Shown piece by piece: positions 4,698 through 9,862 of a stretch of 64,000 bases of DNA (position 1 is its first letter; every line of letters begins with the position of its first letter). The notes under the pieces were generated by a model, which was not told the DNA's origin, did not search any database, and saw only the letters and a list, made by a program, of their open reading frames with translations. Source of the DNA: Thiorhodococcus sp. Lineage in GTDB: Bacteria > Pseudomonadota > Gammaproteobacteria > Chromatiales > Chromatiaceae. The position numbers and the translations under genes were made by a program. Location: NCBI GenBank assembly GCA_029257385.1, contig JARIBS010000052.1:1-64000 (forward strand), read 5' to 3'.

Positions 4698-5428
4698 GGC
4701 AACCTCCCTCTCAGCTATCCGACAACACCTGTTCGCGCCGGACTCTAACCCGTTGGTGTCTCTCAGGACAGGGCACGCGTATCAACCGGACTGGCGGGCC
4801 GTTTTGCCGATGAATCTAACGTAGAGCACACCATACCGGATGCGAATGGCCACCAAACCGACGGACCTGTGAGCCACTTCTCAAATCGCATCTATTTACA
4901 CTGGAGCAACGGGTTTTCTTACATGGCCTGGTCTTGTTCGGAGTTATATTGCACATGATGCGGTGTTTTGAGAGGGCGCCGACTGCTTCTGGCAGTCGCA
5001 TGCCGTGCTAGACACGGTTCTCTCTATTACGACAGACTTGGAATCTGTTTAGCACCATAATAACGCTCGCGAAAATTGTCAGTTCTCTGTTTTTGTATCA
5101 TATTCGGAGAATCGATTTCACGAAGAAAACCGAGAAGCAGTCATTCAGCAATGGGGAGATGTTTTTAGAGCCTCTCGTATTGATTCTGATTAGTTTCAAC
5201 AGAAATACTAGGCGTGTTTTTGACATGATGGAAACATATCATGTGCAGAATGGTCGAGTACGCAAGGTTAGAAAGCAACAAGCCTTACCTTGGAAGCTTG
5301 TCGGCAAGCGTTGGGAAGATCAGCGCTAACATGTGCCTAAAGCCATCTCGTTACACACATCTCCGCTTTAATGTAAAATAAAATCGCCCCCTTCCACTAG
5401 TAGCTTCAGATGTTATACTTAATCAATA
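4698..5428. other. AT-rich intergenic stretch between recC and the accessory block
   Basis: This 731-base stretch has one doubtful small ORF (5093-5329). Composition shifts from GC-rich at about 4,800 to clearly AT-rich by 5,040 and stays so through the next gene. Two small hairpins sit side by side. CGACTGC/GCAGTCG occupies 4980-4998 with loop TTCTG. CCGTG/CACGG occupies 5003-5017 with loop CTAGA. A TATACT hexamer at 5414-5419 could be the -10 box for the acetyltransferase gene, but no good -35 box is paired with it. The change in composition suggests acquired DNA or a relic. Nothing else can be supported. Confidence 0.5.
5093..5329 (+). CDS. small hypothetical ORF, doubtful
   Basis: This ORF has 78 codons starting with TTG; the first in-frame ATG is at 5159. 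The product is basic and contains a short hydrophobic segment (LEPLVLILISF) near residues 25-35, followed by an arginine/lysine-rich tail. I do not recognise it. No convincing ribosome binding site is present: a GGGGAG sits directly against the internal ATG, which is too close. It has the same AT-rich composition as the acetyltransferase gene that follows. It may be a remnant of a longer gene or non-coding. Confidence 0.2.
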   Translation: MYHIRRIDFTKKTEKQSFSNGEMFLEPLVLILISFNRNTRRVFDMMETYHVQNGRVRKVRKQQALPWKLVGKRWEDQR

Positions 5429-5452
5429 GTGAGAAATAAATTTGAGAGAGTG

Positions 5453-6283
5453 ATGGGGCAGTTTGAAATGGTGAAGAATTATCTACAAACTCTTAATCTG
5501 CATGATCGCGAATTAGATTTTGAGTTTCTGAGTGATATTGTTGCACGGCATGTTTCGACTTTTGCTTTTAGCAGCGTAGGATGCCAACTTGGTGATGACT
5601 TGCCACTGGATTTTAAATCGCTATACCAGCGAATTGTTATTCAACGACGTGGTGGATATTGCTTTGAACAGAATGGCTTACTATACGGAGTCTTAGAAGA
5701 GCTTGGGTTTTCACCGAAGATTCTTCTAGCGCGTGTCATTCATAGCCATGATACTCACTCCGGGCTAACACATCGAATGTCGATGGTCGAATATGAAGGT
5801 CAGCAATATGTGTTGGATGTAGGTTTTGGTTTTCTTGGACCTACGTTTCCAGTCCCCATGTCAGAAGTCGAGCCTAATGATGGCAAAAATAATTTCCGCA
5901 TTGCAGAGCGTCACCCCGGTGAGTATTACATGCAGGTTTTTCAGGATGGTGATTTCTGCTCTTTATATCGATTCGATTTAGCACGTTATGGTCAAGCGGA
6001 TTGCGAAGTAGGGCATTTCTTTTCACACCGCCACCCTGATGCTAAATTCGTTAACCATTTGGTAGTGTCACTTATTCAAGAGAACGAAACTCGCGCCTTA
6101 GTTAATTTAAAATATTGGATCACTACAAAAGCGAGTACCCGAAGTCTGGAGATCAGCGATCCCGATCAACTAAAGCGAATCATTGTCGGCGAACTTGGCG
6201 TCCAGATAACTGCAGACGAGAGCCGACGACTGTATGAAAAACTGAAGGCTTCACGCATAGAAAAAGGGGACGAATTTATTTAA
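5453..6283 (+). CDS. arylamine N-acetyltransferase family protein
   Basis: This NAT-family enzyme transfers acetyl from acetyl-CoA to arylamines, hydrazines or a biosynthetic amine through a Cys-His-Asp triad. The cysteine is in RGGYCFEQN, the histidine in LTHRMSMV and the aspartate in YVLDVGFG, in the correct order and spacing. The 276 residues from the ATG at 5453 match the usual NAT length. An upstream GTG at 5429 is also in frame, but GAGAG stands just before the ATG at 5453 and homologues start near here. The gene is strikingly AT-rich compared with its neighbours, which points to horizontal acquisition. Its stop overlaps an ATG (TAATG at 6281) that opens the frame of the next gene. The physiological substrate cannot be told from sequence; some NATs act as amide synthases in secondary metabolism. 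Confidence 0.85.
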   Translation: MGQFEMVKNYLQTLNLHDRELDFEFLSDIVARHVSTFAFSSVGCQLGDDLPLDFKSLYQRIVIQRRGGYCFEQNGLLYGVLEELGFSPKILLARVIHSHDTHSGLTHRMSMVEYEGQQYVLDVGFGFLGPTFPVPMSEVEPNDGKNNFRIAERHPGEYYMQVFQDGDFCSLYRFDLARYGQADCEVGHFFSHRHPDAKFVNHLVVSLIQENETRALVNLKYWITTKASTRSLEISDPDQLKRIIVGELGVQITADESRRLYEKLKASRIEKGDEFI

Positions 6284-6411: not shown

Positions 6412-8370
6412 ATGCACACCACGGCATATTTCGAGAATATCCCCCAGACAATCGCCAAGCGGCTAACCGCAGCAACAGTTCGCATCGTCGCCGCCATCGC
6501 ATGTTTCACTGATCGCGACCTGTTCGATCTGCTGTGCAAACAGGCTGGCCGTGGTCTGCAGGTGCAACTGGCCGTGCCCAACGATGCGCGCAACGTCGGC
6601 CCTGGATGCCTCAACCTCCAGCGCCTGCGCGACAGCGGCGGTCAGGTCTTTCTGCTCCCCGCAGACAGCGACCGCGCCCCGATGCTCCATCACAACTTCT
6701 GCGTCATCGATCAAGCCATCGTCATTACTGGCTCCTGTCCCTGGACCCAGTCGGCACAAGACAATCTGGACGGACTCATCCTCGTCATCACGGGCGACAC
6801 CTCCAATGGTTCCGATAGCGAAACCGATCTCAGCCACACCATCGCCGCCGACTACCTGGACGCCTTCCAGACGCTGCTGCACGACCACGGCCTCGGCTTT
6901 CAGGACATCGACCACGCCGAGATCCGTCGACGCCTGGAAATCGTCCGTCACCTTCTGCTGCTGGAAGACTGGGATACCTTGAGCACCCAGTTCGACAAAC
7001 TCCAACCCATCCGTCACGCGCTGGGACTCGATGCGCTGCTCGACGCCTTGAAAGACCAGCGCGGCGACGACGCACTGGCGTGGATCGACGACGCTCTCAC
7101 CGTCAGCGACGAACGCGCGCCCGTCAAACATCAACAAACCGCCCTGCTGCGCCTCGCCCTGCGCGCCCTGGATCTGCAAATCAACGCCCTGCGCGACGAG
7201 CAGGCCGAGATCGAGCGCCAGATCCACGCCTTCTCGCTTCGCGCCAGCCACACGCTTGGCGATCTGACCAGCCGTTATCTGCAACTGCAAGCAGAGAAAC
7301 AGCGCCGACAGGCCACAGCCGATCCGGCCTTCCAAGCCGAGGCCGACCGCGCCCAGGCCGACTACGAGCAATATCGCGACGCCAACGCCCGCGCCCATGA
7401 GACACCGCCGCTCCCGCCGCTCAAAAGCGAAGACCTACGCGAGCTGAAACGTCTCTATCGTGAGGCCAGCCAGCGCTGCCACCCGGACAAGGTGCGCACG
7501 GACGATCAAACGCACGCCAGCGCCCTGTTTATTCAGCTCCAGGCCGCGTATCGCAACAACGATCTCACCACCGTGCAGGCCATCCATGCCAGTACGCACG
7601 AGGGGCAACGGTTCGTTGCGCGCAGCGTCCCCCTGACCGATGCCGAGGCACTGCAACGTGCCATCGTGGTGCTGCGCTACAATCTTGATAAGCTCATGGC
7701 CGAGCTTCAGGCGCTGCGCGGCAGCGAGACTTATCAAACGCTCGAGTCGTTGACCAACTGGGACGCCTATTTCGACGAACAGCGTCTCAGCCTCGAAGAG
7801 TCCGTTTTCCAGCTCGAAGTGGAGCTGGCCCGGATGGGGTGGCGGGACACGGATGTGGATGGCCCGGACATGGCCGAGCGCGCCCGGTTCAAAGCCTTTC
7901 TGCAAGCGCACCCGCAACTTCTGGCGCCGGGTCTGTCCGGTCATGCCGCCCTCGATTTCGCGCTGCTCAAACGCTATCCCCAGCGCTGGGACTGGCAGGC
8001 GCTCTCGGCCAACCAGACGCTGCCATGGAGCCCGGCGCTGCTTGCGCGCCTGACCGAGCATTGGGACTGGTCGGCCCTGTCCGCCAACCCATCACTGCCC
8101 TGGACCCCCGAGCTGATCGAGCGCTTTGCCGATCGCTGGGACTGGGCGGCGCTTTCCGACAACGTCGCACTCCCCTGGAGTCTGGAGCTGATCGAACGCC
8201 ATGCCGAGCGCTGGCACCCGACGGTCGCACGGCATCTGGCGACACTCTGGCAACACCTGCACCGGCAGGACATCGTGGAGTTGATGGACGGCGCGTCTGA
8301 TCCGCAGGGAAAAGATGCGCACGAGGCGAATAAGGTGTTGGTCGATGACAACGAGTTGAACCTCGTGTAA
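6412..8370 (+). CDS. PLD-like / J-domain / tryptophan-repeat protein
   Basis: This is a 652-residue mosaic protein of unknown function. Residues 1-160 are a phospholipase-D-like (nuclease-type) domain with FTDRDLFDLL and an HKD-like motif at 93-100. The motif reads HHNFCVID, so the catalytic lysine is replaced by Asn95. The downstream GSYNW-type motif reads GSCPW. Residues 170-330 are mostly helical and charged, probably partly coiled coil. Residues 340-392 form a J domain with the HPD motif at 357-359. Residues 415-475 are helical again. Residues 489-625 hold three to four copies of a WDW..LS.N..LPW repeat, capped by a RQDIVELM segment. The frame is open from 6283, but the PLD homology starts at the ATG at 6412, so the 43 extra residues are probably not translated. 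The next gene repeats the C-terminal module. Domain calls are firm; the role is unknown. Confidence 0.8.
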   Translation: MHTTAYFENIPQTIAKRLTAATVRIVAAIACFTDRDLFDLLCKQAGRGLQVQLAVPNDARNVGPGCLNLQRLRDSGGQVFLLPADSDRAPMLHHNFCVIDQAIVITGSCPWTQSAQDNLDGLILVITGDTSNGSDSETDLSHTIAADYLDAFQTLLHDHGLGFQDIDHAEIRRRLEIVRHLLLLEDWDTLSTQFDKLQPIRHALGLDALLDALKDQRGDDALAWIDDALTVSDERAPVKHQQTALLRLALRALDLQINALRDEQAEIERQIHAFSLRASHTLGDLTSRYLQLQAEKQRRQATADPAFQAEADRAQADYEQYRDANARAHETPPLPPLKSEDLRELKRLYREASQRCHPDKVRTDDQTHASALFIQLQAAYRNNDLTTVQAIHASTHEGQRFVARSVPLTDAEALQRAIVVLRYNLDKLMAELQALRGSETYQTLESLTNWDAYFDEQRLSLEESVFQLEVELARMGWRDTDVDGPDMAERARFKAFLQAHPQLLAPGLSGHAALDFALLKRYPQRWDWQALSANQTLPWSPALLARLTEHWDWSALSANPSLPWTPELIERFADRWDWAALSDNVALPWSLELIERHAERWHPTVARHLATLWQHLHRQDIVELMDGASDPQGKDAHEANKVLVDDNELNLV

Positions 8371-8512: not shown

Positions 8513-9862
8513 ATGAGTGACGACTTACCCCATACACCACACGCCCTAGTGCCTGCCGCAAGCCGGGTTTTGGCGCAGGTCACGGATCGGATACTCGCGG
8601 TCGCGACCGTTGCCAGGGACGATACCGAGCGTGAGCGTCTCAAGGCGTTGCTGCGCAGACATCCTGAATTTTCGATTGAACGATTGTCCAGTCATTACCC
8701 GCTCGATGCCGCGCTGATTGAGCGGTTTGCGGATCGGTGGGTTTGGGGCTGGTGGGAGTCTGGGCTGTCCTATAACCCAGCGCTGCCCTGGAGCCTGGAA
8801 TTCATCGAGCACTTTGCCGATCGGTGGGACTGGGGAGAATGGGGGCTGTCGATTAACTCAGCCCTGCCCTGGAGCCTGGAATTCATCGAACATTTTGCCG
8901 ATCGGTGGGACTGGGGGGAATGGGGGCTGTCGGGTAACTCAGCCTTGCCCTGGAGCCTGGAGCTCATCAAACGCTATGCCGATCGGTGGGACTGGGAATA
9001 CCTGTCCGGTAACATTGCTCTACCCTGGAGCCTGGAACTCATCGAGCACTTTGCGGATCGGTGGGATTGGTCGAAGCTGTCCTATAACTCAGCCCTGCCT
9101 TGGAGCCTGGAGCTGATCGAGCGTTATGCGGATCGGTGGGAATGGGGGGAGTGGGGAGGGTGGGGGGGATGGAAGGGGCTGTCCGACAACCAAGCACTGC
9201 CCTGGAGCCTGGAGCTCATCGAGCACTATGCAGATCGGTGGGACTGGGGGAGGCTGTCGGGTAACTCAGCCCTGCCTTGGAGCCTGGAGCTCATCGAACG
9301 CTATCCGGATCGGTGGGACTGGGGGAGGCTGTCGGGTAACTCAGCCTTGCCTTGGAGCCTGGATCTCATCGAACGCTATGCCGATCGGTGGGAGTGGAAA
9401 GAATGGGGAAAATGGAGGGGGTGGAAGGGATGGAAGGGGCTGTCCGACAACCAAGCCCTGCCTTGGAGCCTGGGACTCATTGAGCACTATGCGGATCGGT
9501 GGGACTGGTCGGGTCTATCCGCTAACTCAGCCCTGCCCTGGAGCCTGGAGCTCATCGAGAGCTATCCGGATCGGTGGGACTGGGGGCGGCTGTCGGGTAA
9601 CTCAGCTCTGCCCTGGAGTCTGGATCTCATCAAGCGCTATGCCGATCGGTGGGACTGGTCGAGTCTATCCGCTAACTCAGCCTTGCCCTGGAGCCTGGAG
9701 CTTATCGAACGCTTCGAAGAGCGTAGTGACTGGGTTTTTGAAGCCGACGCCTGGAGTTGGCTAAACGATTGGCTAAGCCCACAGATGCGCCGCCTTCTGC
9801 GCCGTCAAGACATCATCGAGCTGATGGAGTCGCCCGCACAGCCAGCCCTGCCGAATCGATAA
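8513..9862 (+). CDS. tryptophan-rich tandem-repeat protein
   Basis: The 449-residue protein consists of a short N-terminal cap (residues 1-71), twelve tandem repeats (72-400) and a C-terminal cap (401-449). The core repeat is 25 residues with consensus YADRWDWxxLSxNxALPWSLELIER, shown here in two parts: YADRWDWxxLSxN and ALPWSLELIER. Repeats 1-3, 6 and 9 carry inserts, the longest being Trp/Gly/Lys-rich (for example EWGGWGGWKG). By my count about 51 of 449 residues are tryptophan. The predicted form is two short helices per repeat, hence a solenoid. No signal peptide, membrane segment or catalytic motif is visible. The N-cap (RLKALLRRHP) and C-cap (RRQDIIELM) match the end of the upstream protein, so this gene is an expanded copy of that module. 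GGGAGAA lies just before the ATG. Function unknown; a binding scaffold is the natural guess. Confidence 0.8.
   Translation: MSDDLPHTPHALVPAASRVLAQVTDRILAVATVARDDTERERLKALLRRHPEFSIERLSSHYPLDAALIERFADRWVWGWWESGLSYNPALPWSLEFIEHFADRWDWGEWGLSINSALPWSLEFIEHFADRWDWGEWGLSGNSALPWSLELIKRYADRWDWEYLSGNIALPWSLELIEHFADRWDWSKLSYNSALPWSLELIERYADRWEWGEWGGWGGWKGLSDNQALPWSLELIEHYADRWDWGRLSGNSALPWSLELIERYPDRWDWGRLSGNSALPWSLDLIERYADRWEWKEWGKWRGWKGWKGLSDNQALPWSLGLIEHYADRWDWSGLSANSALPWSLELIESYPDRWDWGRLSGNSALPWSLDLIKRYADRWDWSSLSANSALPWSLELIERFEERSDWVFEADAWSWLNDWLSPQMRRLLRRQDIIELMESPAQPALPNR
8726..9712 (+). repeat. in-frame tandem repeat array, about 75-bp unit, 12 copies
   Basis: Twelve coding repeats run head to tail. 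Seven are exactly 75 bp; the others are 81, 81, 87, 102 and 111 bp because of in-frame insertions. DNA identity is high, with blocks such as TGGAGCCTGGAGCTCATCGA and GATCGGTGGGACTGG recurring almost unchanged. This implies recent amplification or gene conversion rather than old divergence. All length differences are multiples of three, which keeps the reading frame and fits selection on a translated product. The array is liable to copy-number change by recombination. Confidence 0.95.

Follow-up and report, generated by a model that had tools for sequence, protein, structure and literature searches.

In a stretch of 64,000 nucleotides from the purple sulfur bacterium Thiorhodococcus sp. (contig JARIBS010000052.1, positions 1 to 64,000; "the window" below), gene A encodes a protein that is composed, in this order, of a PLD-like domain, a helical or coiled-coil region, a J-like domain with an HPD tripeptide, another helical stretch, and a tryptophan repeat in four units of 25 amino acids each. 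Gene B, located downstream of it at positions 8513-9862, encodes a protein made almost wholly of the same repeat, with about 13 strong units. Both genes together probably represent an undescribed chaperone-linked recognition system, which is perhaps directed at phages. A previous reading of the window made without database searches (the sequence-only reading) had described the three domain types in one protein and had alluded to the second gene. All three were found, the PLD domain with a Pfam score above the cut-off, and the statement that no characterized system shows this layout was upheld by searches in Pfam, NCBIfam, PADLOC, and the literature covered, which revealed no counterpart. The domain families as such are known, but their combination and the existence of two clades with different motif states seem to be new, as far as the tools used show.

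The PLD-like domain was recognized by the Pfam profile PLDc_2 on residues 16-128 of gene A (E=4.3e-12, 46.5 bits, cut-off 27), and the corresponding part of the AlphaFold2 model resembled NucT, Zucchini, and FAM83 (Foldseek, E about 2e-5). This confirmed the fold of the "PLD-like nuclease" claimed in the sequence-only reading but not the nuclease, because the catalytic motif HxKx4D(x)nGSxN was incomplete in the window copy. It reads HHNFCVID...GSCPW, with Asn instead of Lys and GSCP instead of GSxN. The related motif is HHKFCVID...GSYNW in the HK clade of gene A homologues described below and HHKFC[VI]ID in phage relatives. Since the catalytic Lys of HxK is an Asn, nuclease activity is unlikely for the window copy, which may be regarded as a "pseudo-nuclease" instead. 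The ratio of nonsynonymous to synonymous substitution rates (dN/dS) of the PLD region after the loss of Lys was 0.17-0.21 in three pairs from the HN clade, which includes the window copy. Such low values indicate that the domain was retained under constraint in this clade, probably for a role other than phosphodiester cleavage.

The tree of the gene A family, which was calculated with thirteen sequences, separated the HK and HN clades with a support of 100/100. The proteins of the HK clade contain the motif HHK, and those with a readable end comprised 460-480 amino acids without fused repeats; a repeat gene was located directly downstream of gene A. The motif of the HN clade is [HDE]HN. Its five full-length proteins, from the window, genomes G022, G031, and G932, and one copy in G930, contained about 650 amino acids and all of them a fused repeat module, while the other members were one broken gene without repeats and one truncated gene. 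Both types were present in G930. Because the full-length HN proteins are fused and the readable HK proteins are not, loss of Lys and gain of the module coincide, and both may trace to one event. The genome of the window contained a single copy of gene A, so regulation of an HK partner cannot be the only role of the HN protein in this bacterium. Concerning the pairing with gene B, the start codon of gene B and the stop codon of gene A overlapped in G107 and G930 (atggatga); in G932, gene B began 2 bases past the stop. Gene B was downstream of gene A in the window and in G022, G031, and G932, but the 957 bases 3' of the HN copy in G930 did not show it.

The intact HPD claimed in the sequence-only reading was confirmed. 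The tripeptide was intact in every homologue spanning residues 357-359, but a complete four-helix J domain scoring above the Pfam cut-off was not recognized. The Pfam DnaJ profile matched residues 340-381 of gene A with E=3.2e-5 and 24.4 bits, which is 3.4 bits under the cut-off of 27.8, and the scores of the homologues ranged from 22.8 to 25.6 bits. This match covered positions 12-51 of the 63 profile positions, containing helix II, the HPD, and helix III, while helix I was not recognizable. Due to the score and the unmatched helix I, the domain is named "J-like" here. The dN/dS of the J region was 0.05-0.32. Residues 170-478 were homologous to a stand-alone enterobacterial "DnaJ family molecular chaperone" of 390 amino acids, with 34% identity to residues 304-472 (BLASTP, E=4e-20). 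This indicates that in gene A a member of an already existing J-like family has been combined with a PLD domain and, in the HN clade, also with the repeat. A search in Escherichia coli with the Salmonella gene for the stand-alone protein yielded no match.

The fused module of gene A, residues 486-626, is a small complete copy of the gene B product. Its four units were visible as a tandem repeat with a period of 75 at the DNA level, and both proteins share the N-terminal cap ERxRxKAxLxxHP and the C-terminal cap LxRQDIxELMD. The number of strong units varied from 4 to 14 in gene B and was constantly 4 in the three fused proteins counted, with a dN/dS of the fused repeats of 0.21-0.31. The AlphaFold2 model of the gene B product was a solenoid of two short helices per unit, with a predicted local distance difference test score (pLDDT) that was about 90 or higher across most repeats.

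No Pfam or NCBIfam model covered the repeat, and matches of Pfam Sigma_1s, Microcin, and CaM-KIIN to repeat proteins were rejected as low-complexity noise. The profile check proposed in the sequence-only reading returned the PLD and DnaJ matches; the repeat was identified by PHROG 3532 and BFVD. Gene B matched PHROG 3532 (phrog_3532, jumbo phages) with E=1.6e-17, and its fold matches in BFVD were proteins of an entomopoxvirus, Marseillevirus, Pithovirus, and Bacillus phage G (E=6.5e-20 and weaker). The module of gene A and gene B both contain tandem tryptophan-rich helical repeats of 23-25 amino acids. Judged by these profile and predicted-fold matches, it is the repeat to which annotators of viruses gave the name "tryptophan repeat gene family" and which occurs in entomopoxviruses, giant viruses, and jumbo phages. 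No solved structure was clearly similar to gene B (Foldseek, none under E=0.001; VIA-align, Z at most 4.5), which does not show that the fold is new. The tryptophan repeats of phages were divergent, with weak unit scores, and neither the J region nor gene B had a match in the viral contigs searched. Clusters of small tryptophan-repeat genes occurred in the jumbo phages Bacillus phage vB_BpuM-BpSp (L065:2486-5749) and Listeria phage LPJP1 (L064).

Gene A likely starts with the ATG at position 6412 rather than with the upstream ATG at 6283, because the homologues start with METTAHFENIP at that point. Homologues of the same length with 81-82% identity were present in two other genomes. The record of Thiorhodococcus mannitoliphagus DSM 18266 carries the gene as well. 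The AlphaFold2 model of gene A was weak, with a mean pLDDT of 55.7 and five sequences in the alignment, so that the arrangement of the domains cannot be read from it. The features are listed in Table 1.

Table 1. Positions in the window of genes A and B, of the parts of the gene A product, and of the adjacent low-G+C region
Feature	Position	Strand	Basis
Gene A, PLD-like/helical/J-like/helical/tryptophan-repeat protein, 652 amino acids	6412..8370	+	Open frame; homologues of the same length
PLD-like domain, residues 9-130	6436..6801	+	Pfam PLDc_2; similarity of the model to NucT, Zucchini, FAM83
HKD motif in degenerate form, HHNFCVID...GS (residues 93-108), with Asn95 in place of the catalytic Lys	6688..6735	+	Comparison with phage relatives and HK clade
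Helical/coiled-coil region, residues 168-335	6913..7416	+	BLASTP of residues 170-319, E=5e-5; model helices, low confidence
J-like domain, residues 338-396	7423..7599	+	Pfam DnaJ, E=3.2e-5; stand-alone homologue
HPD tripeptide, residues 357-359	7480..7488	+	Sequence; invariant in homologues spanning the position
Second helical/coiled-coil stretch, residues 408-478; HK-clade proteins stop at its end	7633..7845	+	Model; comparison of homologues
Fused module of tryptophan repeats, capped at both ends, residues 486-626 (four units, 517-601)	7867..8289	+	Caps same as in gene B
Gene B, stand-alone tryptophan-repeat protein, 449 amino acids, 13 strong units, alpha-solenoid	8513..9862	+	AlphaFold2; BFVD matches
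Low-G+C flank next to recC: about 730 bp apparently without gene plus arylamine N-acetyltransferase gene (5429-6283); probably imported	4700..6283	+	G+C 42-50% versus about 63-65%

Of 210 genomes of the order, 11 contained the PLD-J fusion, two of them only as a truncated copy or a fragment of the gene. The 11 belong to five genera, all in the Chromatiaceae. Outside the Chromatiaceae, the sample of the class contained only partial matches to the PLD or the J part, and a scan of a genome collection with gene A gave one relative only. The tryptophan repeat was present in 9 of 146 Chromatiaceae genomes (5 genera). It is rare: when the phylum was sampled evenly with 398 genomes, the genome of the window was the only positive one. 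Gene A was 89% identical between two genera with RecC proteins of 76% identity, and this higher identity of gene A indicates horizontal transfer. Frameshifted or truncated copies were common in relatives (two of the three copies in G107; also G126 and G057). The three PLD-J/repeat copies of G107 were located within 20 kb (G107:C1 6395209-6412777, L044/L045), with defense-type genes between them, and the damage in the two affected copies consisted of frameshifts or internal loss. Adjacent to a PLD-J copy in this region, an unusual protein (L044:13290-14363) combined a TIR domain (residues 22-143) with GspD-N0, STN, and Secretin_N (residues 198-355).

In the window, gene A is located between recC and a gene for an S41 peptidase, beside the N-acetyltransferase gene with its G+C content of 42% compared to about 65%. 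In the congeners examined, the recC and S41 peptidase genes were far apart and without an insert of the A/B type. A neighbor of the gene A type was likewise absent from recC in these congeners and in one relative examined, and gene A homologues were located elsewhere. The vicinity of recCB is incidental; this part of the sequence-only reading, which had placed gene A in an accessory block by recCB, has to be abandoned, while the accessory character is in agreement with the changing contexts in relatives, often with defense or toxin-antitoxin genes. Genes found near the homologues encoded TIR, HEC-01A (E=2e-142), HEC-01B, HEPN-RES, PemK, SocA, and IrrE-type proteins.

The tryptophan repeat was also observed in other surroundings. 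A type III restriction operon (mod, res) was extended by two tryptophan-repeat genes in G028 (L092:102-9713) and G105 (L093:6531-15937). The first of these starts directly after res and has about 490 residues without Pfam match before the repeats; the second contains Sel1 repeats and is followed by a NERD-UvrD helicase gene on the opposite strand. A PARG-tryptophan-repeat-Sel1 fusion adjoined an ARPP-1-VWA-PARG protein in G028 (L091:5673-12863). On a Hymenobacter plasmid (L062:1118-6193), an AAA-domain gene is followed by a gene for a protein of 1691 amino acids that has divergent repeats of the tryptophan type and ends in a DarT domain. A Salinibacter plasmid carried the tryptophan repeat together with ankyrin repeats, beside a UvrD helicase gene.

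To explain these data, we tentatively favor an accessory, horizontally moving, Hsp70-using two-gene recognition system, the benefit of which would most likely be defense against phages or mobile elements. The solenoids of both proteins would bind a partner, most likely a protein encoded by a phage or mobile element, or one of the host that the invader has altered, and the J-like domain would bring DnaK to the complex and couple its assembly or remodeling to ATP hydrolysis. For the HK clade, the output may be cleavage of nucleic acid by a PLD nuclease that works, like Nuc or NucT, as a dimer. In the HN clade, into which the repeat was fused, the PLD fold may resemble that of FAM83 and TrmBL2 in function, as a pseudo-enzyme that binds nucleic acid or provides a scaffold. 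At the sequence level, this is consistent with the domain make-up, the motif states, the pairing of both genes, the selection on gene A, and the signs of mobility. The defense-type neighbors of the homologues, the type III restriction, PARG, and DarT contexts of the repeat, and the precedent of bNACHT25, in which phage sensing needs the host DnaJ/DnaK (PMC12169576), point in the same direction. Several observations weigh against it. Binding of DnaK is not assured with a J-like domain that stays under the cut-off and has no recognizable helix I. The neighbors in the window, RecC, N-acetyltransferase, and S41 peptidase, are not known as defense proteins. The neighborhood survey suggested in the sequence-only reading often revealed defense-type neighbors; because rough control windows also contained CRISPR and RtcR genes, with PADLOC hits to Cas1, RtcR, and others, an enrichment is not claimed. 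A more far-reaching version would be a new class of immune system, with repeat solenoids that recognize an invader-derived protein, a built-in J-like domain that recruits Hsp70 as a switch, a PLD nuclease (HK) or pseudo-PLD scaffold (HN) as output, and the tryptophan repeat as a recognition module common to bacterial defense (type III restriction, DarT, PARG) and large viruses. This version is speculative and rather unlikely.

Without any role in defense, genes A and B might encode a specialized stress co-chaperone, with the solenoids holding clients, the J-like domain passing them to DnaK, and the PLD domain dimerizing or binding to the nucleoid. The stand-alone enterobacterial J homologue, which is encoded beside rcl (reactive chlorine) or ordinary metabolic genes with no evident defense system, fits such a function. 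The very patchy distribution and the horizontal transfer of gene A, the complete nuclease motif kept in the HK clade, and the tryptophan repeat in restriction, DarT, and PARG contexts do not, so that we regard this explanation as unlikely, although it deserves serious consideration. An accessory factor of DNA repair or recombination acting with RecBCD would be suggested by the position of gene A next to recC. The location of the homologues elsewhere, recC without such a neighbor in the congeners and the relative, and the foreign-looking, low-G+C flank of gene A make this very improbable.

The frequent frameshifts and truncations in G107, G126, and G057 could also mean that gene A is decaying or selfish, an accessory gene that at present serves no function in the genome of the window. 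The copies in the window, however, are undamaged, purifying selection acts on gene A, and the pair is conserved, which renders this explanation improbable. A domesticated decoy of the virus type, in which viral interaction proteins were turned into a device against counter-defense or for superinfection exclusion, would agree with the viral origin of the closest structural matches of gene B and with the repeat-gene clusters in Bacillus and Listeria jumbo phages. This is nevertheless considered distinctly improbable, given the divergence of the phage repeats and the fact that no phage gene was seen beside the A/B pair.

If the favored recognition system is real, it would be a device for defense or quality control that recruits Hsp70 through a domain of its own. 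The tryptophan repeats known from entomopoxviruses, giant viruses, and jumbo phages would then gain a bacterial context and a possible role in ligand recognition. The pair of clades with and without the nuclease motif provides natural active and inactive versions for comparison.

Among known systems, DISARM was rejected as a relative, since the PLD part of gene A gave only a weak PADLOC match to DrmC (E=0.0014) and no other DISARM gene (DrmA, DrmB, methyltransferase) was located beside gene A. The CoCoNuT type IV restriction systems contain Hsp70-like domains and PLD together with the McrBC-type genes cnuB and cnuC (PMC11090510). They were also rejected: the part of that description available mentions no J domain, the other genes differ, and no CnuB/CnuC-type gene adjoins the A/B pair. 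The bNACHT25 protein uses the host DnaJ in trans, and an own J domain, PLD, or tryptophan repeats are not reported in the accessible part of the publication (PMC12169576). The enterobacterial DnaJ-family protein (WP_001033457.1, WP_023307022.1) is homologous to residues 170-478 of gene A and has kept the HPD but is without PLD domain and repeats. Nuc, NucT, and Zucchini share the fold and most of the motif surroundings with gene A; Lys and GSxN are altered in the window copy, whereas both are intact in the HK clade. FAM83/SACK1 proteins use the PLD fold without catalysis. The SACK1 profile scored above its cut-off in two gene A homologues; these proteins are, however, eukaryotic and anchor CK1 kinases, and the likeness is at the level of the PLD superfamily. 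The tryptophan repeat gene family and PHROG 3532 contain the same repeat as gene B, with a period of 23 in phages and 25 in genes A and B. The viral proteins were matched as repeat proteins only, whereas the bacterial gene A combines the repeat with PLD and J-like domains.
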